Both the position numbers and the translations under genes were made by a program. 64,000 bases of DNA, from positions 62,001 through 126,000 of the forward strand of contig DUDT01000004.1 of NCBI GenBank assembly GCA_005110385.1. Reading direction: 5' to 3'. Of the stretch, positions 27,991-41,122 are shown one piece after another; position 1 is the first letter of the stretch; each line of letters starts with the position of its first letter. The stretch is from Candidatus Melainabacteria bacterium (lineage in GTDB: Bacteria > Cyanobacteriota > Vampirovibrionia > LMEP-6097). The notes under the pieces were generated by a model. That model ran no database searches, was not told the origin of the DNA, and saw only the letters and a program-made list of their open reading frames with translations.

Positions 27991-28065
27991 TCCCAAGTAG
28001 CTCAGCGGTAGAGCTATCGGCTGTTAACCGATCGGTCACTGGTTCGAATCCAGTCTTGGGAGCCA
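27991..28065 (+). tRNA. tRNA-Asn (GTT), CCA encoded
   Basis: Cloverleaf by eye: acceptor TCCCAAG/CTTGGGA, D-arm GCTC/GAGC, anticodon stem ATCGG/CCGAT around the loop CTGTTAA (anticodon GTT at 28023-28025), T-arm ACTGG-TTCGAAT-CCAGT, discriminator G and encoded CCA. The gene is intact. It is also the integration target of the adjoining island: bases 28021-28067 recur at 39908-39954, so the 3' half has probably been restored by the element. Its own terminator now seems to lie about 12 kb away at 39962. Confidence 0.97.
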
Positions 28066-28067
28066 TT
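28021..28067. repeat. Attachment site, tRNA-proximal copy (47 bp)
   Basis: Identical over 47 bp to 39908-39954. It spans the tRNA anticodon loop to just past the CCA and includes the self-complementary word ACCGATCGGT, a plausible core for a tyrosine recombinase. The copies flank about 11.9 kb that contain a recombinase at each end. Confidence 0.9.
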
Positions 28068-28093
28068 TTTAAGAGTCAGAATACAGTGAATCA

Positions 28094-28113
28094 CCAGACG
28101 TTCCGTGCGGGAC
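28094..28113 (+). repeat. Subterminal inverted repeat, left copy
   Basis: CCAGACGTTCCGTGCGGGAC. Its reverse complement, with one mismatch, lies at 39824-39843. Each copy is just inside one end of the island (27 nt and 64 nt from the att repeats), like recombinase arm sites or element termini. Confidence 0.75.
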
Positions 28114-28265
28114 TAATTTATTATATCTTATAGATAAATTTTTGCTTTGGGTGGTCGGTAAAAAAATAATTTAGTTACTTTGGGTAATCGGCCATTGCTG
28201 ATTCGACAAAAAATGATATATTAAGACTAGATACCAAGAGAAAGTGATATTTCTCCTAAGGTCCA

Positions 28266-28330
28266 GATAAGCCAGTGGGTAGCTCATAAGAGTCCATATA
28301 TAGCTGAATCTGGGTAGCCACTGGTCTATC
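28266..28330. repeat. Long imperfect hairpin in island left end
   Basis: Arms GATAAGCCAGTGG and CCACTGGTCTATC (13 positions, one mismatch, one wobble) enclose about 39 nt. The word GGGTAGC occurs just inside each arm. It could be an RNA structure or part of an origin or arm-site region. Confidence 0.5.
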
Positions 28331-28370
28331 ATCATAGTCTTTTGTATCTTTTTATAGTTAGATCTATTTA

Positions 28371-28392
28371 AATCCGTAATAACGGGGAGTTT
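28371..28392 (+). repeat. 22-bp direct repeat, copy A
   Basis: Contains ATCCGTAATAACGGGGAGTT. It recurs with one change at 28430-28451, 59 nt start to start. Each unit also contains the small dyad CCGT/ACGG. Confidence 0.7.
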
Positions 28393-28429
28393 GGCTAGTT
28401 CTAATTTTACTAATATTTTCTTCTACATG

Positions 28430-28451
28430 AATCCGTAGTAACGGGGAGTTT
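28430..28451 (+). repeat. 22-bp direct repeat, copy B
   Basis: Contains ATCCGTAGTAACGGGGAGTT, differing from copy A at one base. It lies about 85 nt upstream of the recombinase start, which suits a regulatory or replication iteron. Confidence 0.7.
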
Positions 28452-28536
28452 ATGTATAGGGCGGTATAGTAAACAGTTTTTAGCTCAATGAGCCTTGTGC
28501 GTTCATTGGAAATTTATATTATTAAAGGACAATAAA

Positions 28537-28914
28537 ATGACTTTTGAGAAAGAGTTTTGCAATTCTATTGCAGTAGCCAGAGGCTTTACAAAAACAGATC
28601 AAAAAATACATAAACTAAAACAAAAGATCCCAACACAACATAAATCAGTAATAGAAGCATGGGATCAAGCCATGAAAAATGCTGCATCTTGTTATGGAAG
28701 AATAGTAGGACCGAATACTAGAAGGATTTACTTTAATGCTGCGGTTAAATTCTTTAAATACGTGAAAAATGATTATTCTAATCTCTATCAAGCCTGTGTA
28801 ATGGCTATAGATGAATGCAGACCAGAGCAGTTTTCAACTCGTAAGCATATTAAGGAGGCTGGGATTAGCTTAGCCAAATTTTTAATTTATAAAGGAGAGC
28901 TATTAAATGACTAA
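28537..28914 (+). CDS. Tyrosine recombinase, N-terminal core-binding half (split gene)
   Basis: 125 aa from the ATG at 28537, which has a ribosome site aaaggac. The track's GTG at 28495 is not needed. The segment GRIVGPNTRRIYFNAAVKFFKYVK and the helices after it look like the SAM-like core-binding domain of phage-type integrases. The second recombinase in this island has a similar stretch, GRPIGPRTLEIYEYYFHLY. There is no catalytic domain here. That lies in the next gene, which starts in another frame with an 8-nt ATGACTAA overlap and its own AAGGAG site. The two products probably assemble into one recombinase. Confidence 0.7.
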   Translation: MTFEKEFCNSIAVARGFTKTDQKIHKLKQKIPTQHKSVIEAWDQAMKNAASCYGRIVGPNTRRIYFNAAVKFFKYVKNDYSNLYQACVMAIDECRPEQFSTRKHIKEAGISLAKFLIYKGELLND

Positions 28915-29563
28915 TGAATTAATTGAGTTAATCAAATCTGTAAATCTAAAAAAGGTAAAGGAAGCTCATGTCAAATTAAAAGATACGAAAATTAAAAGAA
29001 CTATTTCTAGGGTAATAGATACCTTAAGCTTAGAGGATTTAGGAAAAGCTCTAGAAACTAACGAAAGACTTTTAACTAGTGAAGCTAATAAAGAGCTAAA
29101 TAAAATTATTATGCTCTTTGCTTTCTGGACTGCTTTTAGAGCCTCTGAAATTATTAACCTAGAAATAACAGATATAAACTTAAAAGCTAATCGTCTTCTA
29201 GTAAGACAGGGGAAAGGCTCTAAAGATAGAGAAACGGGGATGAGTAAAGAGATTAAGCCACATTTAGAAAGGTATCTAAATGAGATTAGACCACAGTCTA
29301 AATCATTAAAAGCTTTTCTTTTATCTGATGGGCGGGAAATTACTTTAGACAGGCTAGAGAAGAGAATTAAGTATATCTTTAAAAAAGCTGGTCTTAAAGG
29401 TTTATTACACAGCTTTAGACGTGGTGCTTTAACTCATTATGCTAATCGTGGAGTGCCTTTAAGCCATCTTCAGATTATCGCAGGACACGCAAATATTCAG
29501 ACCACTATGAGCTATGTAAATCACAAAGTAGAAGAGGTAATCAATGCACAGATTAATTGGTAG
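28907..29563 (+). CDS. Tyrosine recombinase, catalytic half (split gene)
   Basis: 218 aa carrying the full catalytic set of the tyrosine recombinase family: Arg in FRASEI near residue 77, Lys in GKGSKDRE near 107, HSFRRG near 168, the GH of IIAGH near 192 and the nucleophile in TTMSYVNH near 203. It lacks the N-terminal core-binding domain, which the overlapping upstream ORF supplies. Its job should be integration and excision at tRNA-Asn. The intact catalytic residues and the coupled start argue against a decayed frameshifted integrase. Confidence 0.85.
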   Translation: MTNELIELIKSVNLKKVKEAHVKLKDTKIKRTISRVIDTLSLEDLGKALETNERLLTSEANKELNKIIMLFAFWTAFRASEIINLEITDINLKANRLLVRQGKGSKDRETGMSKEIKPHLERYLNEIRPQSKSLKAFLLSDGREITLDRLEKRIKYIFKKAGLKGLLHSFRRGALTHYANRGVPLSHLQIIAGHANIQTTMSYVNHKVEEVINAQINW

Positions 29564-29615
29564 TGATTTTAAAAGCATAAATAATAATTTAAACAAACCA
29601 ACAGGAGACAGTATT

Positions 29616-31901
29616 ATGGACAGTTTTAGATGTTCGATCAACGATAAGATAATTAATAAAGATCTAGATGCTCTAAAGAAGCATAATTCAAACTTTCAGG
29701 AAATTGAGCTTAATATTCAGGAGTTATTAGAGAGTATTAGTCAAGGTAAAGCCTTCTCTCCAATAGCATTTAAGGATAATACTAGAACTGGTAAGAATTT
29801 CATATCGGCTCAGCTCTTAGTTCTAGATTTTGACAATTCCAATCTAAAAGAGACTTTAGGGCATGAATATATAAAAAGCCATGCTAGTGCTTACTATACG
29901 ACACCTAGCCACAGAGTAGGTTCTAATGGTGATAAATTTAGAATCATTTTTCAAGTACCTGAAATTATTACAGATCAAGAGACGTATAAAACTTGTTTGG
30001 AGAATTTGCTAGGGAAATTTCCAGAGGCAGATCAAGCCTGTAAAGATACCGCTAGAAGCTTTTATGGTTCTAAGAATTGCATTTATGAATACTGGAATAA
30101 GAAAATCAGCTTAGAAGAATTTGAAAATCTAAAGATACCTAAAATTACCAGAAAAAAAAGTGAGAAAAGGCTGTCACCCCTGTCACCTGTCACTGATGAA
30201 AAACTATTTAATGAAATAAGAGACATGCTAAAGTCCATTCCAGCTTCTATCACTTATGAAGAATGGCGTAATATAGTCTGGGCTTTATGTTCTAGGCTTA
30301 ACCCTGAAGAAGTCAGAGACTTAGTTAATTCATGGAGTCCAGATTATAAGAATGATGGAGAGCATTTAGAAGAATTAATCAGCAGATATGACGGCAGTAT
30401 AACGATCAGGACTCTTTACTATCATGCTCAAAAACATGATTATGATTTACCTAAGCACTACCTAAAAAAACTAACAGCAGGGCAGGCAGTGGAAGAAGAA
30501 TTAATTAAAAGAAAGAATCGGATAATTATTTCGGTCTCTGGTTTACTGCATGAGTATAAGAACGGCTACTATGAGCCAATTAAAGACACTGAGTTTAATA
30601 AGGAAGTATCTAATTTCTTTAAGGAGTATATTACTAGTTTCAAGACTGGAGCCACTGATTATGCTAAGCCCTGCCATACAGAGGAAGCGTATAAATATCT
30701 AGTACAGAGTTATGCAGTAGATATAGATAAAATTAATCCAAGTGGGATAAACCTAAAGAATGGCTTTCTGAGACTAGCTTATGATGAAAGATTTAAGCCA
30801 GTTTTTACTCTAGAAGAGCATAAGCCAGAACAGCTTAATATCTATATCTGTGATTATGAATATAGTCCAGAGGCTAATGATTCAGACTTAAGCGGATTCT
30901 TAAATAATGTCTTAGATAAGGTAGATCAGGAGATCATTTTAAGATTAGTCGCTAGCTGCTTAGATATTAAGACTGCTCGCAAACATGCTGGTAGAGGGCT
31001 AAAAGCTGTAATAAATTATGGGGATGGAGCTAATGGAAAAGATACTCTAAGAGAGATCTTTACTCAGCTAATCGGGAAGCATAGATTTACTAGCATATCC
31101 TTGCAAAGCTTTAAGGAAGCTGATTCGGGAAGGAGATTTGGGATTTTTGATTTATATCGCTCTGCGATTAATTGGTCCTCTGAGAATAGTGCGATTAATA
31201 CAGATAAATCACAGACCCTAAAAGCTGCGATTACTGGTGATCCTATACAGCTAGAGAGGAAGAATAAAGATCCGATAGAAGCTAGTCCTAGAGCGATTTT
31301 CTTTTTTAATATGAATGGAACACCTAATATTAGTTCTCTAAGCGAAGCCGTGAAATCTAGGTTATGCCCTATAGAATTTAAAAATACTTTTAAAACTAAT
31401 CCTAATCTGAGTATTAGCACTGAGAAGAAGGCGGACCCGAGATTTAAAGAAGATCCAGAGTTTATTAGAAAGACTATTCTGCCAGCTCTACTGAACCTGA
31501 TTATAGATTCTTTCAGTAAATTATTAGATGAAGGGATAGATTATAGCTCTAAAGAAAAGCATTTCGAGGATATAGCTAGAAGTAATAATCATCTATTAGA
31601 GTTTATTGGGGAATTGTCTTTAGTGGAATGCTCTTTAGATCAAGGTCTTAGCGTTGGTGAAATTTATGAGTCTTATATTCAGTGGTGCTTAAGCTCTGGG
31701 TTAGCTAATGATAAGAGTGGAATCTCTAAAGCTAGCTTTATTAGTGAGACTGATAGATTTATCTCTAATCCAGCTGAGATGAGTAAGAGGCTTGGGGAGT
31801 GTTTTTTAGGTGTTAAGAGGGGGAGAGTGAAGAGGGATGGAAGGCTTGTTAGGGTGATTGGGGTGAGGGTGGATGACTTCTCTAGAATCTCAGCACATTA
31901 A
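29616..31901 (+). CDS. PrimPol-PriCT2-SF3 helicase replication protein
   Basis: 761 aa from the ATG at 29616, which has a good AGGAGA site 8 nt upstream. The track's ATG at 29544 lies inside the previous gene. The N-terminal part resembles an archaeo-eukaryotic primase-polymerase: acidic strand LLVLDFD near residue 67-73, TTPSHRVGSNGDKFRIIF near 100. A PriCT-2 linker follows (LKSIPASITYEEWRNIVWAL). The C-terminal D5/P4-type SF3 helicase has Walker A GDGANGKDT near residue 467 and later FFFNMNGTPNI and KSRLCPIEF. Such proteins start replication of satellites and plasmids such as phage P4. The 3' end overlaps the convergent hsdS-like gene by 4 nt. Confidence 0.85.
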   Translation: MDSFRCSINDKIINKDLDALKKHNSNFQEIELNIQELLESISQGKAFSPIAFKDNTRTGKNFISAQLLVLDFDNSNLKETLGHEYIKSHASAYYTTPSHRVGSNGDKFRIIFQVPEIITDQETYKTCLENLLGKFPEADQACKDTARSFYGSKNCIYEYWNKKISLEEFENLKIPKITRKKSEKRLSPLSPVTDEKLFNEIRDMLKSIPASITYEEWRNIVWALCSRLNPEEVRDLVNSWSPDYKNDGEHLEELISRYDGSITIRTLYYHAQKHDYDLPKHYLKKLTAGQAVEEELIKRKNRIIISVSGLLHEYKNGYYEPIKDTEFNKEVSNFFKEYITSFKTGATDYAKPCHTEEAYKYLVQSYAVDIDKINPSGINLKNGFLRLAYDERFKPVFTLEEHKPEQLNIYICDYEYSPEANDSDLSGFLNNVLDKVDQEIILRLVASCLDIKTARKHAGRGLKAVINYGDGANGKDTLREIFTQLIGKHRFTSISLQSFKEADSGRRFGIFDLYRSAINWSSENSAINTDKSQTLKAAITGDPIQLERKNKDPIEASPRAIFFFNMNGTPNISSLSEAVKSRLCPIEFKNTFKTNPNLSISTEKKADPRFKEDPEFIRKTILPALLNLIIDSFSKLLDEGIDYSSKEKHFEDIARSNNHLLEFIGELSLVECSLDQGLSVGEIYESYIQWCLSSGLANDKSGISKASFISETDRFISNPAEMSKRLGECFLGVKRGRVKRDGRLVRVIGVRVDDFSRISAH
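30171..30193 (-). repeat. Triple GTGACAG heptamer cluster inside primase gene
   Basis: Three CTGTCAC words (30171-30177, 30180-30186, 30187-30193), i.e. GTGACAG on the minus strand, at spacings of 9 and 7. They encode the linker LSPLSPVT between PrimPol and PriCT-2. A second trio in the other orientation lies at 38211-38234. Possible initiator binding sites. Confidence 0.5.
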
Positions 31902-33322
31902 TCCTGTTCTTGTTTTATTGCGTCTTCAATTATCTTGTTAATTGCCTGTTGTTTTTCTTCTATTTGTCTGTCAATTACTTTTTGCTCGTCAAGTTGTGTT
32001 TTGATTTTTTCAACTATTTCAGCTTGTTTGGTTTCGTCCCAATCAGGAATTGGAAATTCCTTTATTTGGCTTGGAAAAATGTTGGTATTGTTGCCAAGTC
32101 CTTTTTTGTGAGTGTAAACCAAATACTGAAAAAAGTCGCTACGCATATAGTAGTAAGCACACAAAGGGTCAAAACCTGTAAGTCTTATTCTTTGTGTGAA
32201 GTCTGCAAAAATTCCGTTGATGTCTTCGTCTTCAATTAGAGCAACTTTTCCAATTGTTCCTTCGCCTGAACGTGCTAAAAGTATGTCGCCTTTTTTGACT
32301 GTCTTGTTTAGGTTGCTTGCTGAATAACTTTCAGATACCTTTTTGCAGTCTTCGGGGTCAAATGCCCACGTTTTGATGTTGGACATTGCGATGTAAAAAT
32401 ATTCCCCGTCTTCGTCATAGTCGCTTGGGGAAACACTTTTGCCTAAAACGATATTATCGGAAATGTAATCTTTAATTTTTTTGTTTGTCTTGCTTTCTAA
32501 GAACGATTGGATATAAGCTCCTGCTTTATTGTGAAAGCGAATACCCATTCGGCAATCAATGTTGTTTGCAAATTTTGAAATACTTGATGTGTAGGCTTTT
32601 TCTTTCTTAATGGATTCAAACGCTGACCAATCAAATACTAATGCTTCCCCAAAAACTTGATTAATGATGTTTAAAGTCTGTTTTTTTGTCGTCTTTAAAT
32701 TTGAAATTTCTTGTTTTAAAGGATTTATTTTTTCAAGTAGTTCTAATTGTGAGTTAACAAGAGCATCTACAATTGCTTTTGGAAAACGAATAGTTTTTAA
32801 ATCATCTTCTTTTAAAGTTGGGTATCCTTTCCCTTGTCTTGATACAGCATTTATTTGATTGATAAATTTTGTTCTTAGAACTAAAAAGAAAAGTTCAGAA
32901 TTTATTCTTGGTCTTATTTGAATAAATGCTTTGGTGAAATAAGTGTCTTCATTCTCAATCAGAACGTTTTTATTTAGGTATGGTCTAATTTTAGAAATTA
33001 ATACATCACCTGATAAGGGTTTGATAATGTCGCCTTTTTCTATTTTTTTAAATAAACTTTCATTTTCTTCCTGTCTTTCATCAAATGACAATTCTACAGG
33101 TTCAACTTCTCCCAATTTATTCACGTTGCCAATTTCAGCATATAGAAATTTATCGAATGTTGAAATATCAATGCTTTGAAAAGAAACGAAATCAAATAAC
33201 TGTCGATAAGAGTAAAAGTCTTTATTGCTCGTTTCAAAAGACGAAATATACTTGTAATCGTATCTCAAACTTTCTTCTGAGCGGAAATCAGAAAGTTTCT
33301 TTTTTTGAATATTTACTCCCAT
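31898..33322 (-). CDS. R-M specificity subunit (HsdS-like)
   Basis: A 474-aa two-TRD specificity protein of the type I/BcgI kind. It has two target-recognition halves (about residues 20-180 and 240-420). Each ends in a helical spacer, with LELLEKINPLKQEISNLKTTKKQ centrally and EIVEKIKTQLDEQKVIDRQ at the C-terminus. Typical strands are KGDILLARSGEGTIGKV and FPSQIKEFPIPDWDE. It sets the DNA sequence recognised by the adjoining nuclease-methylase, whose stop it overlaps by 10 nt. Base and codon use differ from the neighbours (more C-ending Asp/Asn codons, more CGN Arg), as in the next gene. This suggests the pair was acquired separately, perhaps from Bacteroidota. Confidence 0.85.
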   Translation of the reverse strand: MGVNIQKKKLSDFRSEESLRYDYKYISSFETSNKDFYSYRQLFDFVSFQSIDISTFDKFLYAEIGNVNKLGEVEPVELSFDERQEENESLFKKIEKGDIIKPLSGDVLISKIRPYLNKNVLIENEDTYFTKAFIQIRPRINSELFFLVLRTKFINQINAVSRQGKGYPTLKEDDLKTIRFPKAIVDALVNSQLELLEKINPLKQEISNLKTTKKQTLNIINQVFGEALVFDWSAFESIKKEKAYTSSISKFANNIDCRMGIRFHNKAGAYIQSFLESKTNKKIKDYISDNIVLGKSVSPSDYDEDGEYFYIAMSNIKTWAFDPEDCKKVSESYSASNLNKTVKKGDILLARSGEGTIGKVALIEDEDINGIFADFTQRIRLTGFDPLCAYYYMRSDFFQYLVYTHKKGLGNNTNIFPSQIKEFPIPDWDETKQAEIVEKIKTQLDEQKVIDRQIEEKQQAINKIIEDAIKQEQD

Positions 33323-36105
33323 ACTACGTCTTTTCTTATGTTGTCTAATATGGTTTGTAATTCAGAAGTGCGAAGCACAATGTCGTCACTTTTGTATCTT
33401 GAAAGCACGCCATTTTTAAAATGGTTGATTAGTTCGGTATCTGTTCTTTCGGTAAATTCTGATTTTAGGCTGTCGCTTTCATAATACTTTTTGAAAATCT
33501 CTAACACTTGGGCTTTTTCAGTTTCAACCTGTTCAATTTTCAAGTTTTGATTTTCAATATCAGCCGTTAGTTTTTCAGATTTCTTTTTAAGTGCTTCGGT
33601 TTCTTTACCGTCTAATTTCTTATTGACTGTTTCCAATTTCGTTTTCATTTCTGCCAATTGCTCTTTCAAAATCTTAATGTCTTGGTCGTAATCTTCCAAG
33701 ATTTGTTTTGTCTCAATTGTGTTTGGTGCATATTCAATATCGTAAAGCTCGTTGGGCATTGGATTTTCGCCTCGTTTGGTTCGTTTGTAGCCAACATTTT
33801 CGGCTTCTGCCATAAAAATATCGTAGTCTATTTCCTTGGCTACTTCACCAAATACCCACCAAGCATTATAAAAGCCAAATACATTGGTTTCCTTTTCAAA
33901 TTTTGAAAGGCTGTTAATTTCTTCGCTGTATTTGGTTAATAGTTCTTTTGGGTTGAGTGCTTCGTCTTCGGGTGTAATGTAGTCTTTCAAGAAGCGTTTA
34001 ATGTTCTCTTTAATGTGTTTTAAATCTTCTTTTTCAATGATTTCAACGGCTTCTCTATCTTCTTTCTTCAAAAGTTCCTTTAGGTCGGTAGAGAGTTCTT
34101 TTACCCAAGCAAATTTTTTGCTGAGTTTGGCTTGATTTACAAAATAGTCGTGATAGCGAGTTACACGAGTTTTAAGTTTTGCCCATTTTTTTCCGTATTG
34201 GTCCCAAAGCTCGTTCCATTGCTCAACTTGTTTTTTGGTTTTCTTTTGAGCAAATAGCAAACTTGTTTTGGTTGAAGTGTAAGGCTCAAATGTTACCTGC
34301 GGTAAACTAACGATTGCTTTTACATTGAAATACTTGAACAGAAATAAGCGAATGTATTTGTTTTCGGTGGTGTCAAAAACGCTTTCAGGCAAAACAACAC
34401 CCAAACGACCGCCTTCTTTTAAAAGCTGGTAATATCGTTCAATAAATAAGTTTTCAGAATTATTTTTGTCGCCAAACACAAAAGTACTTTTTACTTCTCG
34501 TTGTGTTTGTGTGTCCAAATCAACGCTAAAAGGTGGGTTACTTATCACAATGTCAAATTTTGCATTTACTTCTTTATCGTTATAAAGCGTTTCGGGGTTT
34601 GCTGTTTCTAAATAGTTGGGTGATGTTTCTTTTACATAGAAACGGAAAGGTGACAAACCGTCTTTTACAAAAATGTTTGTTGAGCCGTCACCATGCAAAA
34701 TCATATTTACTTTGGAAGCTGTGCCTAAGTCAAAGTTGATTTCAGAGGCATAGAGATATTCTTTTGCCCATTTGTTCTCGGCGTAATCAGGCGTGAAAAG
34801 TTCTTCGTAACGCTGTTTGATTTGTCGGCTTGATTTGAGTTTATCTTTTTGTTTGTATTTAACTTCTTTGGTGATGAGCTTCATTGCTTCAACTAAATAG
34901 GTTCCACTTCCTGCCGAGGGGTCAATGATGAGCGGTAATTCTCGGTCGTTGTTCAGTCGGTCAATTGCTAACTTGTCAAGTTGTAAAGCGTAAAGTAAAA
35001 AGTTTACGATTGGGGTAGGGGTGAAAAACTGTCCTTTGTGTTGTTTGAAACCATCTCTTGTAATGCTTTCAAAGAAATCTCCCAAAATGTCTTTTCCGTC
35101 TAACGAACTACGACCTTCCAAAAATGAAAAGTTCTCTAAGGATTGAACGGTATAAATGAGCTTGTTTAGTGGAAACTTATTTTGGTTAATGATGTTGTCC
35201 TCATCAATTTTTTTCTGTTCCGAAACATTGAGCTGGTCTTTTAAGGCTCTTTTGTAAAGTTGGTTTATTCGGTCGTAAACCTTTTCAGATGCTTCAATAT
35301 GGCTTCCATACTGGTAAATCTGAAAATCGTATTCTTCTCCGTCTTGCTTTTCATATTCGTCTTGAATTTTTGCAAGAATGATTTTTACAAGTGAGTAGAA
35401 AATTTCACTGTCGTTAGTTCCGCCACCGCCCCAAAGCACATTGTGTAAGTTTCTGCCCAAACCTTCAATTTCTTCACGATTGATTTTGCTTCTTAAATCG
35501 TGTTTTTCATCTCCTTTGAATAGTGGCTGTTTCTTGGGTTCACCGTAACTTGCGGTTAATTCAATTCCAATGGAAATAAAACCGTCATTTTCCCAATCAG
35601 TGTAGTTTCTGTACTTCTCAAAATCAATGATAATTGCTTTGTCTAAAATCCCTTCATCTTGTAGATCGGCTGTATAGTAAACCAAATATTTTACTTTGGT
35701 CTTATAGTCTTTTTCTTCGGCTGCTGCCAATGAGAAAAGTTGCCCTTCAATTTCTTCTTTGTCTTTCTCGAACTTGTCTGGTGCTTTGGCTTCTATGAAA
35801 AAGAAGGGATTGCCTTTATCGTCTTTAACAATGATGTCAATACGTGGTGTTAATTTTCCGTGTCCTGCTTTTATCGAATATTCTTTTTCAATTTCAATGT
35901 TTTCGGGTTTGTAGTCAAGTTCATTGACTAAGTGGTCAATGAGAAATGCTCTTACAATTTCTTCGTCACCTGTCAAGGATTTTAAAACTCTGTTCTGCTT
36001 TATTTTCTCGGAATACTGAACAGTCGCTTTGTCAATGTTGATTTTGGCAACACTATTTTTCTGTTTGTGCAGGTTCTGTTCAATATTTTGTTTCCAATCT
36101 TTCAT
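33313..36105 (-). CDS. Fused restriction nuclease-N6-adenine methylase
   Basis: 930 aa. The N-terminus is an HSDR_N-like PD-(D/E)xK nuclease fold: PRIDIIV near residue 85 and FFFIEAKAP near 103 give the D...ExK catalytic set, with a later GQL. An HsdM-type N6-adenine methyltransferase follows, with the AdoMet loop DPSAGSGTY near 395 and catalytic NPPF near 523. The C-terminal ~200 residues contain a long coiled coil (EQLAEMKTKLETVNKKLDG). With a separate S subunit and no hsdR anywhere near, the layout is that of BcgI-like type IIG/IIB enzymes, which cut and methylate in one complex. It could alternatively be a methylase with an inactive nuclease domain. Confidence 0.85.
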   Translation of the reverse strand: MKDWKQNIEQNLHKQKNSVAKINIDKATVQYSEKIKQNRVLKSLTGDEEIVRAFLIDHLVNELDYKPENIEIEKEYSIKAGHGKLTPRIDIIVKDDKGNPFFFIEAKAPDKFEKDKEEIEGQLFSLAAAEEKDYKTKVKYLVYYTADLQDEGILDKAIIIDFEKYRNYTDWENDGFISIGIELTASYGEPKKQPLFKGDEKHDLRSKINREEIEGLGRNLHNVLWGGGGTNDSEIFYSLVKIILAKIQDEYEKQDGEEYDFQIYQYGSHIEASEKVYDRINQLYKRALKDQLNVSEQKKIDEDNIINQNKFPLNKLIYTVQSLENFSFLEGRSSLDGKDILGDFFESITRDGFKQHKGQFFTPTPIVNFLLYALQLDKLAIDRLNNDRELPLIIDPSAGSGTYLVEAMKLITKEVKYKQKDKLKSSRQIKQRYEELFTPDYAENKWAKEYLYASEINFDLGTASKVNMILHGDGSTNIFVKDGLSPFRFYVKETSPNYLETANPETLYNDKEVNAKFDIVISNPPFSVDLDTQTQREVKSTFVFGDKNNSENLFIERYYQLLKEGGRLGVVLPESVFDTTENKYIRLFLFKYFNVKAIVSLPQVTFEPYTSTKTSLLFAQKKTKKQVEQWNELWDQYGKKWAKLKTRVTRYHDYFVNQAKLSKKFAWVKELSTDLKELLKKEDREAVEIIEKEDLKHIKENIKRFLKDYITPEDEALNPKELLTKYSEEINSLSKFEKETNVFGFYNAWWVFGEVAKEIDYDIFMAEAENVGYKRTKRGENPMPNELYDIEYAPNTIETKQILEDYDQDIKILKEQLAEMKTKLETVNKKLDGKETEALKKKSEKLTADIENQNLKIEQVETEKAQVLEIFKKYYESDSLKSEFTERTDTELINHFKNGVLSRYKSDDIVLRTSELQTILDNIRKDVVWE

Positions 36106-36413
36106 ATTGGCTCCCCATTGATAAAATATACCAGTAATTGAAAGAGAAAAGGTTAGTAGGATTGAAAAATAACAAGCTAAGCTAATCTCGGATTAGGTTT
36201 CAGGGATAAAGGATTGACACCTAATAATTTTCAAATTTTGTAAATCTCGTGAATACTAAATCTATCATTTTCCTGTAAATCTAAACTTTCTGCGTAATCC
36301 CCTTTAAACCTAATTAAGCCGCATAAGGCATTCCCCACCCTACTCCCGTAGATTTAAAATCTGAAATTCTCTATAAACTTGGTCTTCAGAAGGATAAGCA
36401 TTCTCGTTCATTC
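36106..36413. other. Intergenic region between R-M and AbiE genes
   Basis: 308 nt. It should contain the promoter for the methylase gene, but I see no clear boxes. On the minus strand directly after the AbiEii stop, a 23-codon ORF (36340-36411, MNENAYPSEDQVYREFQILN...) starts 2 nt away. It could be the leftover start of a third gene lost when the R-M genes arrived. Otherwise nothing recognisable. Confidence 0.4.
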
Positions 36414-37268
36414 TCACACCACTTCGTTTGAAACAAAAAGCCAGTCTAGTAAAAGATTATACTCCACTAGATAAATCTCTATATCTGGTAAATCCCTAAG
36501 CTGATGCTTAAGCATATTATTCCAAGCACTTTTCAGCTCAGCTACTTTCTCTATGTTAGTCATGAGTCCTTTATCAGGCAGCCCAACGCCTTTAAATTCA
36601 CACTTTTTAGCTAGCACTCGCTTTAGCTCAGTAGGAGCGGGAAGTAAATCTTTTCTTTTATAGATTTCTATGACATCATATAAATCACGAGGCAAGGACC
36701 TTTCTACAGTGGCTCTCAGCTTTTCTGCAAAGATCTCTAAATACGAGTATGAATGTATATAGAATAAGCTTTCTTCTAGATCAGTGTAAGTATGATGAAC
36801 TATGGATCTTACAGGCTTATCTATTAAAGCTTCATCTACAGTGAGATCTAGCTTAATTCTTGGTAAGCTACCAAGCCTGCGAATTGGTCCATGATAGCTA
36901 AGTTTGCCTTTAATTGAGACTGTGTTTCGTATGGTTTCACGTTCTTTAAAGTTTATATCCTCTAGTGGCAGTTCTACGCCACTATTGTCATAAACCCATT
37001 CAGAAAGGCTTTTAAATTTTTCTTCAAGGAATTTAGTATCTAGGTGAGCCTTGTTCATGAGTGTAAAATCTAGATCCTCTGAGAATCTATAATCTTTAAA
37101 GAAACATTTCTTAAGGCAAGTACCACCTTTAAAAATCCAGTTATCTTTTAATTCAGAATCGTGATTAATAGCTGCTAATACCCAGCCAAGTACATAATCT
37201 TTCTCTATCACATCTAGGCTTAAACCCAGTCTCACAGAAGAATCACTAATTTCATTTTTAGTTATCAC
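36414..37268 (-). CDS. AbiEii-family nucleotidyltransferase toxin
   Basis: 284 aa. The toxin of type IV-like AbiE toxin-antitoxin/abortive-infection systems, a DNA-polymerase-beta-fold nucleotidyltransferase. Motif FKGGTCLKKCFF then RFSEDLDFTL near residues 45-70 gives the GG...DxD catalytic signature. The downstream LEIFAEKLRATVERSLPRDLYD is the conserved EKLxA...RDxYD block. The start overlaps the antitoxin stop by 4 nt (ATGA), as is usual for AbiEi-AbiEii. Family members tie toxicity to NTP transfer onto tRNA. Confidence 0.92.
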   Translation of the reverse strand: MITKNEISDSSVRLGLSLDVIEKDYVLGWVLAAINHDSELKDNWIFKGGTCLKKCFFKDYRFSEDLDFTLMNKAHLDTKFLEEKFKSLSEWVYDNSGVELPLEDINFKERETIRNTVSIKGKLSYHGPIRRLGSLPRIKLDLTVDEALIDKPVRSIVHHTYTDLEESLFYIHSYSYLEIFAEKLRATVERSLPRDLYDVIEIYKRKDLLPAPTELKRVLAKKCEFKGVGLPDKGLMTNIEKVAELKSAWNNMLKHQLRDLPDIEIYLVEYNLLLDWLFVSNEVV

Positions 37269-38074
37269 AGATTCATATCCTTAACCCAGCCCTTAGAAAC
37301 CCACAAACGCCATTTACTCACTAACTGATCTTTAGGTAAATCAGTATCTAATTTAGAATAGCCTGCACTTAAATTCTTGTAAGCTACCTCTATAATAGCT
37401 TTCTCCTGCGGGGAAATTCTTTCTGTAATAAAACCTAGCCGCTTAAAAACCACTCCCTTATTAAACCTTAGAGCATAATCTATTAATAGATCTATATTTT
37501 TATGCTTAGAGTTTAAATAGTTTTTATAAAACTCCGTCACCTGCTTAATTCCACCGAAATAAGAGGGCTTGTAAAACATATCTATAACTGTTTTACTAGG
37601 ATCTGAGATCTGTACCTTACTCTGTCCCTGCCATATAGTCTTAGTGCCGAAGATCATAGATTCTTGTACTGTGTGCAGAAGGTATTTAGTGCCGTTAAGC
37701 TCATACTCTTGCTGATTTTGCTGTTTACTAGTAAAGACCTGCACTGTATTAAATATCTGCTCTGTAAAATCCCAGTATTCGCAAGCCGTCCAGCCAGCAA
37801 TATAGCAAGGTTTCCATAGCTTACTTGCGACAGCCCAAGGATGTTCTAAAGGTGGGGACTCTAATCTAGACGATAGATCTACAGGAACATAGTAACCTCG
37901 CTTAATCCTAGACAGCCAGCCTTGTTTGCGAAAGCTATATAAAGTCATTCTAGCTTTCTCTCTAGATACCCTCCAAGCACTGACAGCAGTATCTACGCTG
38001 ATAAGCTCGGTAGAAGAGCTTAGTAATTGAGCTAGCTTAGTTTTTAATTTTGATTCTAGGTTTAGAGAATTCAT
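37265..38074 (-). CDS. AbiEi-family antitoxin with N-terminal winged helix
   Basis: 269 aa. The N-terminal winged helix-turn-helix (VDTAVSAWRVSREKARMTLYSFRKQGWLSRIKRGYYVPV) followed by the AbiEi domain (AGWTACEYWDFTEQIFNTVQVFT) identifies the transcriptional-repressor antitoxin of the AbiE pair. It should repress its own operon and neutralise the AbiEii protein. A small palindrome about 66-82 nt upstream (38140-38156) could be an operator. Confidence 0.9.
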   Translation of the reverse strand: MNSLNLESKLKTKLAQLLSSSTELISVDTAVSAWRVSREKARMTLYSFRKQGWLSRIKRGYYVPVDLSSRLESPPLEHPWAVASKLWKPCYIAGWTACEYWDFTEQIFNTVQVFTSKQQNQQEYELNGTKYLLHTVQESMIFGTKTIWQGQSKVQISDPSKTVIDMFYKPSYFGGIKQVTEFYKNYLNSKHKNIDLLIDYALRFNKGVVFKRLGFITERISPQEKAIIEVAYKNLSAGYSKLDTDLPKDQLVSKWRLWVSKGWVKDMNL

Positions 38075-38139
38075 TTTATATTTTATAGCTAGATATTTTA
38101 TTTGAAATAAATTAACTATATAAATAATATACCACTTAG

Positions 38140-38156
38140 CTGTATTTTATATACAG
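38140..38156. promoter_or_regulatory. Palindrome upstream of abiE pair (possible operator)
   Basis: CTGTAT-tttat-ATACAG, a 6-bp dyad in very AT-rich DNA 66-82 nt before the AbiEi start. AbiEi proteins are known to bind inverted repeats at their promoter. Assignment here is by position only. Confidence 0.35.
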
Positions 38157-38210
38157 TTAATCCCTATTTACTTGATTAGCTTTGTATAAAATATAGTAAT
38201 TTTACTATGA

Positions 38211-38234
38211 GTGACAGGGTGACAGCAGTGACAG
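38211..38234 (+). repeat. Triple GTGACAG heptamer cluster, intergenic
   Basis: GTGACAG at 38211-38217, 38219-38225 and 38228-38234, in a 220-nt gene-free gap. The same heptamer is clustered three times, on the other strand, inside the primase gene. Iteron-like. It may be bound by the PrimPol-helicase. Confidence 0.5.
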
Positions 38235-38294
38235 GACTTTTCATATTATTATTTCTGAGATTTCTCCGCTACTCTAAAATACTTTAGACTTTTA

Positions 38295-38540
38295 TCATTT
38301 CTTCTGAGCTTTATCTATCTTATTCAGACCATAACAAGCCTTTCTGATTCTGTTTAACTGTGTTTTTAGTCCTCTAGCACCTTCATACTTACTCAGTTCT
38401 GTAAAAAGAAGGCTTAGTTTAGTTTCTAACTCTTTTTTCTGAGCTATCACCGTATTAATAAAAGCTCTATCTGATTTACTTTGACGCTCTGCCTTTGCTA
38501 ACTGAGTTCTAAGGTTTTTAATCTCTAAAGACTGCTCCAT
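38295..38540 (-). CDS. Small coiled-coil protein
   Basis: 81 aa, predicted helical throughout with heptad-like spacing (EIKNLRTQLAKAERQSKSDRAF, then KKELETKLSLLFTELSK) and a basic C-terminus (NRIRKACYGLNKIDKAQKK). I do not recognise it. It lies between the AbiE pair and the HTH-recombinase on the same strand, where elements of this type often have a small excision or copy-control gene. That is only a suggestion. Confidence 0.45.
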   Translation of the reverse strand: MEQSLEIKNLRTQLAKAERQSKSDRAFINTVIAQKKELETKLSLLFTELSKYEGARGLKTQLNRIRKACYGLNKIDKAQKK

Positions 38541-38686
38541 GACTATATTTTAGCCTGTTTTTTGATTAAAACAAGGATATTGCTTCCTAATCAGAATCTA
38601 TACTAATAGATGTCTACTATTTTTTGATTTTTCTGAGCTGGGGCTTTCTCTGCGTGGCGAGGATTAAAGATAACCGCTATAAACTT

Positions 38687-39802
38687 TCACCACTCCCTCA
38701 TAGCAGCTACAACCTCATCCTCTGTAGTCATAATGTAGCTTTGAGTAGTACCTAAATCAGCATGCCCTAAAGCTATTCTCAAATGATTTAAAGGTTTACC
38801 TCTATTAGAGCTAAATGTAGCGAATGTTCTTCTAAGCCCATGAGCAGTAAACTCTATACCGCAGCTTTTAGATAGCCTGTGAAATTTTCTAATCAATACA
38901 TCTCTTACTAGTGGCGTACCATGAGCATTTGTAAAAAAAGAATCATTCTCTGAGGGATTAGCTTTTAACCTTAATTCGAGATAAAGCGATAGAGCTTTTA
39001 TTAGCTCTTGGTTTATACCTACTTTTCTGTTTTTATTTCCCTTACCTAGCCACACTGAGACTATACCTTGATTAAGATCTACATCAACCATCTTTAGATT
39101 AGCTACTTCACTTGCTCTAAGCCCAGTATTTACTATGAAAATTAATAGTGCTTTAGTGAGAGCCTTGTTGTATCGAGGCATAGGAGAGGTATCTAGATGA
39201 GCTAAGATCATTTCATATTGAGTTGGATTAAGTACTGTTCTTTTAGCAGGGAATACTCTTTTAGGTTTTAACTTTTTTAGTTCTAGCTTTTCAGCTTCAG
39301 TAAAGAGTTTCTTCTCTATTAAGTATTTAGAAAAGCTTAGGACTGAATCATAAATTTTAGCTTTAGTGCTAAAGCTCTTAGGATCATAAGAGCCTAAAAC
39401 CTCTCTTAGATTATTTACTGAAATTATTGGTTTAGTGTAATGCTGTCCTAGACCTTTAATATATAGATGAAAATAGTATTCATAAATTTCTAGCGTTCTT
39501 GGACCTATAGGTCTGCCATTCAGCTTTCCAGTTTTACACCAGTCAAGCCATTCTATAGACATGCTTTCTAGATCACTTTTAGTTAGATCTAAATCCTTTT
39601 CTATCTTTTTGATTAGCTTTCCAGAACCTCTATAGTATTTATTTTTCCATTCTTGATAATCTGAGATTCTAACTGAATATGTTCTTATTCCAGAGAAGCT
39701 TTTAATAGCTGGAATGAAACCTTCTTTGCAGTATTTTTGAATAGTTCTTTCAGCGATTTTAAGATCTTTAGATATTTCATTGATAGTGATATACTCGTGC
39801 AT
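38687..39802 (-). CDS. Tyrosine recombinase with fused excisionase-like HTH
   Basis: 371 aa. Residues 1-55 form a MerR/excisionase-type helix-turn-helix with a wing (EISKDLKIAERTIQKYCKEGFIPAIK...YSVRISDYQEW). A SAM-like core-binding domain (IEWLDWCKTGKLNGRPIGP) and a complete catalytic domain follow: GLRASEVANL near residue 225, the Lys in LGKGNKNRKVG, HGLRRTFAT near 318, ALGHADLGTTQSYI near 347-356. It lies 105 nt from the right att repeat and points into the island, with the right subterminal inverted repeat upstream of its start. An integrase carrying its own DNA-binding module may combine integration and directionality. Confidence 0.9.
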   Translation of the reverse strand: MHEYITINEISKDLKIAERTIQKYCKEGFIPAIKSFSGIRTYSVRISDYQEWKNKYYRGSGKLIKKIEKDLDLTKSDLESMSIEWLDWCKTGKLNGRPIGPRTLEIYEYYFHLYIKGLGQHYTKPIISVNNLREVLGSYDPKSFSTKAKIYDSVLSFSKYLIEKKLFTEAEKLELKKLKPKRVFPAKRTVLNPTQYEMILAHLDTSPMPRYNKALTKALLIFIVNTGLRASEVANLKMVDVDLNQGIVSVWLGKGNKNRKVGINQELIKALSLYLELRLKANPSENDSFFTNAHGTPLVRDVLIRKFHRLSKSCGIEFTAHGLRRTFATFSSNRGKPLNHLRIALGHADLGTTQSYIMTTEDEVVAAMREW

Positions 39803-39823
39803 AAGGACTCCTTTTAGTTAGGT

Positions 39824-39843
39824 GTCCCGCACGGACCGTCTGG
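39824..39843 (-). repeat. Subterminal inverted repeat, right copy
   Basis: GTCCCGCACGGACCGTCTGG, the reverse complement of 28094-28113 with one mismatch. It lies just upstream of the HTH-recombinase start, so it could also be its operator. Confidence 0.75.
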
Positions 39844-39907
39844 TCATCGAAATTTTTCAAGTCTTAAAATTTAAAACCCTTTTCCTGAGTGGGTTTTAGC
39901 ATGGCGC

Positions 39908-39954
39908 CTGTTAACCGATCGGTCACTGGTTCGAATCCAGTCTTGGGAGCCATT
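39908..39954. repeat. Attachment site, distal copy (47 bp)
   Basis: An exact copy of the tRNA-Asn segment 28021-28067. It marks the right end of the ~11.9-kb island. The 528 nt from here to the dinD start hold only att fragments, hairpins and terminators. Confidence 0.92.
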
Positions 39955-39961
39955 AAAAAAT

Positions 39962-39996
39962 AAAAAGCCTGCCCTTGTGGTGGGCTTTTTATTTTT
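39962..39996 (+). terminator. Rho-independent terminator, probably the original tRNA-Asn terminator
   Basis: Stem AAAAAGCCTGCC/GGTGGGCTTTTT (12 positions, two wobbles) followed by ATTTTT. It begins 8 nt after the distal att copy, i.e. where the tRNA 3' trailer would have ended before integration. Confidence 0.8.
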
Positions 39997-40020
39997 AATT
40001 CCTAAAATGTATCCAACTAA

Positions 40021-40064
40021 GTGACCGATCGGTTAACGATACAACAAAAAATTCGATCGGTCAC
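40021..40064. repeat. Hairpin carrying an antisense copy of the tRNA-Asn anticodon region
   Basis: GTGACCGATCGGTTAAC (40021-40037) is the exact reverse complement of 17 nt of tRNA-Asn (anticodon loop to T-stem). A second GATCGGTCAC at 40055-40064 pairs with its first 10 bases to form a perfect stem around ~24 nt. It is a relic of an inverted att event or a small structured element. Confidence 0.7.
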
Positions 40065-40099: not shown

Positions 40100-40131
40100 T
40101 CACTGGTTCGAATCCAGTCTTGGGAGCCATT
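40100..40131. repeat. Third tRNA-Asn 3'-end fragment (att-like)
   Basis: 32 nt identical to the tRNA T-arm/acceptor end (TCACTGGTTCGAATCCAGTC and onward to CCATT). The anticodon arm is missing. It is followed by its own terminator. Confidence 0.85.
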
Positions 40132-40138
40132 AAAAACT

Positions 40139-40169
40139 AGCCCTGATCGAAAGATTGGGGCTTTTGTTT
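40139..40169 (+). terminator. Rho-independent terminator after third tRNA fragment
   Basis: Stem AGCCCTGATC-GAAA-GATTGGGGCT with a GNRA-type loop (one wobble), followed by TTTGTTTT. It is a second terminator trailing a tRNA 3' end, as expected if an element brought its own. Confidence 0.75.
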
Positions 40170-40402
40170 TAGAGATTAAAATTTAGAGTTTACTGATTTA
40201 GTTTGCTACGCTTGCCTAGCGTAATACATCGTAGCTTGACCTGATTATCCTTTGCTATTGATAGAATTAATTTAGTAACCAATCGGCAAAATCATGGGTG
40301 ATTATAATAAAGAAACTTTAAACGTTCAATTTGCAAAAGAATTCTGGAAATACTTTTTTAATGAAATTCTTTGCATCAAAATATAAGAGGAAGCGAGTTA
40401 AT

Positions 40403-41122
40403 ATGAAAATAGAAATAGTAAGATCACTCACTGATAACTTTGAGTCTTTTGTTAATAAGACCGAAGATGAGGTGGAGTTCTGGTTAGCAAGAGACTTGCA
40501 GCATCTACTCGGCTATAGTAAATGGGATAATTTTCAAAATGTTATATCGAAAGCTAAAACAGCTTGTGAAGTTTCTGGAAATGATATAAATGACCATTTT
40601 GCTGACGTCGGGAAAATGGTTGATCTTGGCTCTGGAAGCAGTAGAGAACTCGATGATTTAATCCTTACTCGTTATGCTTGTTATCTAATAGCTCAAAATG
40701 GAGATCCCCGAAAAGAACAAATTGCTTTTGCGCAGACATACTTTGCGGTTCAGGCAAGAAAAGCTGAATTAATAGAACAAAGAATATTAGAGCATGAAAG
40801 GGTTCAAGCACGCGAAAAGCTTGCTAGTACAGAAAAAGAACTCTCAAGCATAATCTTTGAACAAACGGGTGGTAATCATAATTTCGCACTCATTCGTAGT
40901 AAAGGCGATCAAGCTTTTTTTACTAAGAGTACTCAAGCAATGAAAGATAAATGGCAAATCAAAAATAAGCCATTAGCTGATTTTATGCCGACTATCCTTC
41001 TAAAAGCAAAAGATTTCGCTACTGAAATCACTTCTTCTTGGGATTCTTATCCAGTCTTAGGAGCCATTTTAAACCGATTGAGAATACAAAACATACGAAA
41101 AAGCTTGCGTCTTGCGTGTTAA
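40403..41122 (+). pseudogene. dinD: DinD-like damage-inducible protein, C-terminus replaced
   Basis: 239 aa from the ATG at 40403. The track's TTG at 40331 adds an unlikely leader. The N-terminal BRO/DinD-type region (WLARDLQHLLGYSKWDNF, ILTRYACYLIAQNGDPRKEQIAFAQTYFAVQ) and middle (KGDQAFFTKSTQAMKDKW, KPLADFMPTILLKAKDFATEIT) are well conserved. Family proteins continue for about 60 more residues. Here the match stops right after FATEIT and the reading frame enters a tRNA-Asn-like sequence (41050-41070), giving the odd tail SYPVLGAILNRLRIQ. It was probably truncated by recombination at an att-like site. DinD is SOS-regulated in E. coli, but no LexA box is evident here. Confidence 0.75.
41050..41070. 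repeat. Fourth tRNA-Asn 3'-end remnant inside dinD
   Basis: ATCCAGTCTTAGGAGCCATT plus one more base matches the tRNA acceptor end with one mismatch (A for G). With the copy at 40100 it encloses about 0.95 kb holding the dinD gene. Confidence 0.65.

Follow-up and report, generated by a model that had tools for sequence, protein, structure and literature searches.

A tRNA-Asn-bound island with a split recombinase, a replicase and defence cargo, probably an integrative mobile element of an uncultured Melainabacteria lineage

The island and its host

We analysed a 64,000-nt stretch of DNA from a Candidatus Melainabacteria bacterium (contig DUDT01000004.1, positions 62,001 to 126,000), called the window throughout, which is part of genome G000 (1.9 Mb in 25 contigs, 88.5% complete). 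At a tRNA-Asn gene in this window lies an 11.9-kb segment that, judged from its sequence, is very probably one integrative mobile element, driven by a recombinase that we call IntB, replicated by an enzyme of its own, transferred by a helper, loaded with defence genes and accompanied by an accessory recombinase, IntA. The direct basis for regarding it as mobile is threefold: an attachment (att) repeat at tRNA-Asn, an unoccupied copy of the site in a sister species, and a plan that is common to other islands. The nearest named relatives of the host are Candidatus Caenarcaniphilales RE-15aug16-7, 'Cyanobacteria bacterium' REEB446 and Caenarcanales DT_14; a preliminary description of the window had supposed a poorly sampled lineage, which agrees with relatives that are Caenarcaniphilales/Caenarcanales metagenome-assembled genomes (MAGs). 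The host thus belongs to an uncultured lineage within the non-photosynthetic sister class of the cyanobacteria, a class that we take to be Vampirovibrionia. Every comparison reported here is based on MAGs or draft genomes, among which G001 represents the sister species of G000. The features of the island are as follows (SD, Shine-Dalgarno; HTH, helix-turn-helix; AEP, archaeo-eukaryotic primase; SF3, superfamily 3; RM or R-M, restriction-modification; ORF, open reading frame).

27991..28065, plus strand: tRNA-Asn(GTT), the integration target, kept intact by the insertion (ARAGORN; Rfam RF00005)
28018..28067, plus strand: att core, tRNA side; 47 nt (28021-28067) exact against the right copy (repeat comparison)
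28090..28113, no strand: inverted arm site on the side of the tRNA, 22 bp inward of the core; 22/24 complementary to 39824-39847
28354..28451, plus strand: upstream of IntA, a 39-nt repeat in two direct copies that end near-identically in AATCCGTARTAACGGGGAGTTT; candidate operator or iteron
28537..28914, plus strand: IntA-N, N-terminal (core-binding) part of a split tyrosine recombinase; 47.5% identity to the N part of a second IntA, IntA2; alone, no Pfam match
28907..29563, plus strand: IntA-C, complete catalytic domain (R-K-HxxR-H-Y; PF00589, 3e-27); own ATG, SD-like GGAG, 8-nt overlap with IntA-N
29544..31901, plus strand: replicase, AEP PrimPol + PriCT_2 + DUF5906/SF3 (P4-type) helicase (domain scans)
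31898..33322, minus strand: S (specificity) subunit, type I / BcgI-like (PADLOC Specificity_I, 1e-21)
33313..36105, minus strand: fused nuclease (HSDR_N, ID..EAK) and N6-adenine methylase, type IIG-like RM (PF13588, PF02384; REase_MTase_IIG, 8e-42)
36414..37268, minus strand: AbiEii nucleotidyltransferase toxin (PF08843, 8e-35; PADLOC, 2e-108)
37265..38074, minus strand: AbiEi antitoxin/regulator (PADLOC, 4e-89)
38295..38540, minus strand: 81-aa ORF, kept beside IntB in the sister species (75%)
38687..39802, minus strand: IntB, HTH_17/excisionase-like N-terminus fused to a tyrosine recombinase (PF00589, 2e-30; HTH_17, 8e-5; phrog_66 excisionase, 1.5e-4)
39824..39847, no strand: inverted arm site on the side of IntB, upstream of intB and 57 bp inward of the core (complementarity to the left arm)
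39905..39954, plus strand: att core, distal copy; 47 nt (39908-39954) exact (repeat comparison)

The 47-bp copy of the tRNA-Asn 3' half that had been described as enclosing about 11.9 kb is clearly there: the two copies lie 11,887 bp apart, 28018-28067 and 39905-39954 match at 49 of 50 positions, and the longest direct repeat in 50 first-order Markov shuffles of the region was at most 18 nt. The earlier inventory of the boundaries was sound for this repeat and overlooked outer copies of the tRNA-Asn 3' end, an inverted partial core and the arm sites. In the window's 24-nt arms the best 21-nt stretch gives an inverted match at 20 of 21 positions, as against 13-17 in shuffles, and because matching inverted arms stand at both ends, we regard the 11.9-kb segment as one unit. 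An Rfam scan of 27-42 kb found no RNA other than the tRNA, and the 39-nt repeat pair had no counterpart at the other loci examined.

With regard to gene content, the recombinases proposed for the two ends are both present, the left one being refined to two ORFs that overlap by 8 nt; the P4-type PrimPol/SF3 replication protein can be specified as above, and the AbiE toxin-antitoxin is clear by PADLOC for both components. The 'nuclease-methylase pair' is indeed an R-M system, but instead of a pair there is a single fused HSDR_N and N6_Mtase protein plus a type I-like S protein. This arrangement resembles BcgI-like or type IIG systems with an S subunit in its fused nuclease-methylase and separate S protein with two target recognition domains, and differs from them in the length of the RM protein (930 aa) and its type I-like C-terminal extension. 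The deviant composition claimed for the R-M block is borne out by codon use, whose distance from the window background amounts to z = 10.8 for RM plus S and 9.3 for the RM gene, as against the host-like codon use of the IntA, replicase, AbiE and IntB genes. In line with the reported absence of virion and conjugation genes, scans of the island proteins found no phage structural genes (Pfam and PHROGs), no relaxase or type IV secretion system genes (family scans), and no capsid-remodelling, terminase or packaging-redirecting genes (Pfam, PHROGs, NCBIfam).

Empty and occupied sites in the sister species

The preliminary description had suggested a search of related genomes for tRNA-Asn loci with and without the segment, and G001 offers both. 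Its contig C18 represents the empty site and carries the tRNA-Asn gene, a terminator, an inverted core copy and a Fic gene, and contig C97 represents the right end of an occupied site, with Fic, att, IntB, the small ORF, AbiEi/AbiEii and then a restriction gene. IntB of C97 is 99% identical to that of the window and AbiEi/AbiEii are 97% identical. In place of the window's IIG module, C97 has a gene that we read as a type III restriction subunit. C18 is not a simple collapse of the flank of C97, since single-nucleotide polymorphisms beyond att differ between the two contigs, and C18 and C97 are best read as two strains. With one contig empty and the other occupied, the tRNA-Asn site is therefore polymorphic and its cargo exchanged.

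A family of islands across the class

Relatives of IntB were found in 26 of 289 class genomes (E<=1e-30). The islands around them are 6-13 kb in size, are bounded by repeats of 39-87 bp that derive from tRNA genes and match exactly or nearly so, and use tRNA genes for Thr, Arg, Asp, Pro, Val and Glu as targets. Each of the islands examined has intB at one end and contains cargo, and most have a replication module, which may be of the AEP-PriCT2-DUF5906 type, the DUF3854-DUF3987 type, a Prim-Pol with AAA_25, or a Toprim protein with a DnaB-like helicase. The cargo includes DpnII, D12 methylase, Mrr, TIR, Schlafen-AlbA and other PADLOC families; for 45 cargo proteins, no named head, tail, portal or terminase appeared among the 25 PHROG families listed. 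The island in the window belongs to this class-wide family, which combines an HTH-fused IntB with a replication module that can be swapped and with cargo devoted mostly to defence.

A second island is present in the host genome itself (G000:C12:109866-118397). It occupies tRNA-Lys, comprises 8.5 kb between exact repeats of 50 bp, and encodes IntB2 (49-50% identity to IntB), a three-part IntA2 and a two-part DUF3854/DUF3987 replicase. In G001, a tRNA-Met island was inferred from two contigs with a common 62-bp repeat, C91 (IntA and a PrimPol of 82% identity) and C28 (IntB and AbiE). The order IntA-replicase...IntB is identical at tRNA-Asn, tRNA-Lys and tRNA-Met.

Arms were compared in eight islands that have a tRNA gene at one end: Asn and Lys of G000, Met of G001, and Arg, Arg, Pro, Pro and Val of other genera. 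The offset from the core is about 17-30 bp for the arm nearer the tRNA and 48-62 bp for its partner, and this asymmetry is the same whichever end holds intB. Since the unequal offsets recur across islands, attP is probably asymmetric, which fits the directional recombination carried out by tyrosine integrases.

Several observations weigh against the element as we interpret it. Two of the eight arm pairs are individually non-significant (G001 Met, 2/60; Val, 3/60), the same arm test found no arms in the Glu island, and the Thr islands of G006 and G045, the Asp island of G037 and a 22-kb island on G006:C34 misfit, are unassignable or have two full tRNA copies. Moreover, both G001 alleles come from one MAG, so that the empty site could be that of a second strain, and the assembly of G001 lacks the left end of its Asn island: a search with the window's left-end DNA did not find it.

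A recombinase in pieces

IntA is encoded by two ORFs in the window, by three at tRNA-Lys in G000 and by the same three-part gene at tRNA-Lys in G001. Besides the similarity of its N part to that of IntA2, the C part of the window protein is 38.5% identical to the middle part and 58% identical to the C part of IntA2; because the window parts match the corresponding IntA2 parts, the first cut point is homologous and old. A sequencing error was ruled out as the cause of the split, as IntA2 has the same first split point and a genome assembled independently again shows the gene in three parts. When IntA is in three parts, one polypeptide carries the first arginine and the lysine, and a different one carries HxxR, H and Y. 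From its sequence, IntA is read as a translationally coupled multi-part recombinase, with frameshifting or decay as weaker alternatives. We tentatively go one step further and propose that IntA may be naturally multi-part, with its core-binding domain and the two halves of its active site, R/K and HxxR-H-Y, made as separate polypeptides under translational coupling; these would come together as a functional enzyme that, with IntB and the replicase, is dedicated to a new satellite-like island family in non-photosynthetic relatives of the cyanobacteria.

That the split gene is a decaying pseudogene or a programmed-frameshift gene, and not a working multi-part enzyme, we consider unlikely. Single-ORF homologues of 311 aa do exist (G001:C91 and G002:C26), preceding replicases that are 82-83% identical to the window's; all IntA junctions shift to the same frame, and one of them carries AGGGGGTAT, which we take to be the motif of the prfB frameshift site. 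However, each downstream part begins at an ATG preceded by a GGAG-, GGGGG- or GAGG-type (SD-like) sequence and overlaps the ORF before it by 8 nt, two IntA genes that are just 39-58% identical have the first split site in common, and the three-part form is conserved in two species, between which the ratios of non-synonymous to synonymous substitution rates (about 0.22, 0.11 and 0.06 for the three parts) indicate purifying selection.

No further split IntA genes were found outside G000 and G001 among 382 class genomes. In the literature, of which our coverage was limited, only engineered split tyrosine recombinases and the SSV integrases came up. The SSV-type archaeal suicidal integrases also consist of intN and intC pieces, but their genes are broken into distant halves by integration (PMC8371274), whereas the IntA pieces are adjacent, overlap by 8 nt and have their own starts.

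Repeated insertions at tRNA-Asn loci

Beyond the distal att core, two further features of the window were noted.

39955..40037, plus strand: terminator-like hairpin and inverted partial core (40020-40037); original tRNA flank, as at the empty site (alignment with G001:C18)
40100..41122, plus strand: older 1-kb insertion outside the island, with partial att 40100-40131, truncated DinD 40403-41122 and partial att remnant 41049-41070

DinD is truncated at the tRNA-Asn-like 3' end at 41049-41070, a remnant that is a weak att match, and the 1-kb piece is missing from both G001 alleles; the tRNA-Asn locus has therefore been hit repeatedly. The motif that forms the arms of the tRNA-Lys island, CTTGCGTCTTGCG, also occurs in the window at 41095-41118, upstream of the Fic gene outside the island, and may have been left behind by an earlier element. 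The tRNA-Lys island, for its part, is accompanied on the outside by three 35-bp att scars spaced about 223 bp apart. In G006, a tandem array at tRNA-Asn (C34:31235-105691) consists of a complete prophage, a 7.5-kb piece and the 22-kb defence island, separated by tRNA-Asn half copies with four att copies in all; the prophage, in which terminase-, portal- and capsid-like genes were read by eye, carries an IntB relative (47%). At a tRNA-Asn gene of another family (G028:C12:270016-275819), a large serine recombinase gene overlaps the tRNA 3' end beside an SF3 primase, apparently an unrelated integrase with the same target and the same kind of replicase.

Satellite or plasmid-like element

Among named phage and plasmid records, the best relatives of the replicase are from Nostoc-type cyanobacterial plasmids (34-38% identity), as against 24% for P4 and other phages, and a phage of the P4 kind was on these figures ruled out as its nearest source. 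In the predicted structure, the N-domain matches the AEP of cyanophage S-2L PrimPol and the plasmid RepB' primase; the model of the full protein is poor (mean pLDDT 49) and good only for residues ~30-200. Archaeo-eukaryotic primases encoded by mobile genetic elements likewise combine AEP, PriCT domain and helicase in integrated elements (PMC5862659).

It is possible, if rather doubtful, that the island is better described as a helper-dependent or non-mobilizable integrative plasmid-like element, akin to integrative mobilizable elements and spread through the conjugation of another element or through natural transformation. The related plasmid replicases reside mostly on plasmids predicted to be mobilizable or non-mobilizable and the island has no virion genes, but neither was a relaxase found among its genes.

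The preliminary description had likened the island to phage satellites. Its integrated, mobile, defence-carrying and modular character stands; satellite status does not follow, as no packaging, capsid-remodelling or helper-hijacking gene was seen. The label is plausible but unproven, and as no helper or packaging function was found, we speak of a satellite-like mobile island and not of a satellite. P4-like satellites and PICIs share with it a site-specific integrase, an SF3 replicase (P4), defence cargo and a size of ~10-12 kb, but the island has a plasmid-like replicase and no visible gene of the sid/delta/psu, stl/ppi/terS or another hijack type. Tycheposons of Prochlorococcus are likewise tRNA-bounded, with a tyrosine recombinase and varied cargo, but are described as cargo elements of 4-200 kb (PMC10872708).

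The satellite idea stays alive because PICMIs, small satellites of Vibrionaceae with defence cargo, also have no capsid-remodelling genes (PMC10803314). The genes by which they are recognised encode an integrase, an AlpA/HTH_17 protein, a DUF3987 or DUF5906 primase and Fis. A true satellite of this type would be silent in the tRNA gene, induced by a helper, equipped with its own primase and packaged by the helper as concatemers without capsid remodelling, which for our island is unlikely, though not negligibly so. Its gene logic matches with integrase, DUF5906 primase and cargo, the AlpA-like HTH being just a weak N-terminal domain of IntB, and the G006 prophage, which uses the same tRNA-Asn att in tandem with islands, also speaks for it. 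On the other side, PICMIs have fis, a separate alpA and a helper phage, whereas the island has a tRNA target, an HTH fused to its integrase and a second, split recombinase; no match to Fis was obtained for the island proteins scanned against Pfam, and no packaging site was noted. IntB-type integrases are nearly absent from IMG/VR (2 weak matches), the replicase is nearer to plasmids than to phages, no terminase was found in G000, G001 or G002, and no helper prophage was detected in G000 with two queries, PF03237 and the G006 prophage terminase, in a genome that is 88.5% complete.

Finally, a composite of two tandem elements (IntA-replicase on the left, cargo-IntB on the right) fused after loss of an internal att, which would contradict our interpretation, is improbable: the composition of the R-M block is foreign, some IntB islands lack IntA and serial att scars occur at the tRNA-Asn locus, but the matching arms are at the outermost ends and the constant order of IntA, replicase and IntB at three tRNA genes points to a stable unit.

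A proposed life cycle and its implications

For the single integrative element that we favour, the following sequence of events can be envisaged. IntB would bind the core and the inverted arm sites, its HTH domain probably acting at the arms, and would integrate and excise the element at the tRNA-Asn 3' half. The excised circle would be copied by the AEP-SF3 replicase. Because the element has no transfer genes of its own, a helper would be needed for transfer, be it through phage packaging or transduction or through another conjugative element, and R-M and AbiE would serve as swappable cargo that shields host and element from phages. IntA, which would share an operon with the replicase and be expressed as an N-terminal and a separate catalytic polypeptide that most likely assemble non-covalently, would assist either by resolving multimers of the replicating circle, a role suggested by its position beside the replicase, or as a partner recombinase at the att site, which is possible since IntA lies towards the tRNA end in all three dual islands.

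These findings describe small islands with integrase, replicase and defence genes as a family that spans an entire class of uncultured bacteria, and their att signature, a tRNA repeat with an asymmetric pair of inverted arms, is simple and allows more such islands to be found. If split IntA works, it would be a natural counterpart of the engineered split-Cre enzymes and would directly test to what extent the active site of a tyrosine recombinase tolerates division.

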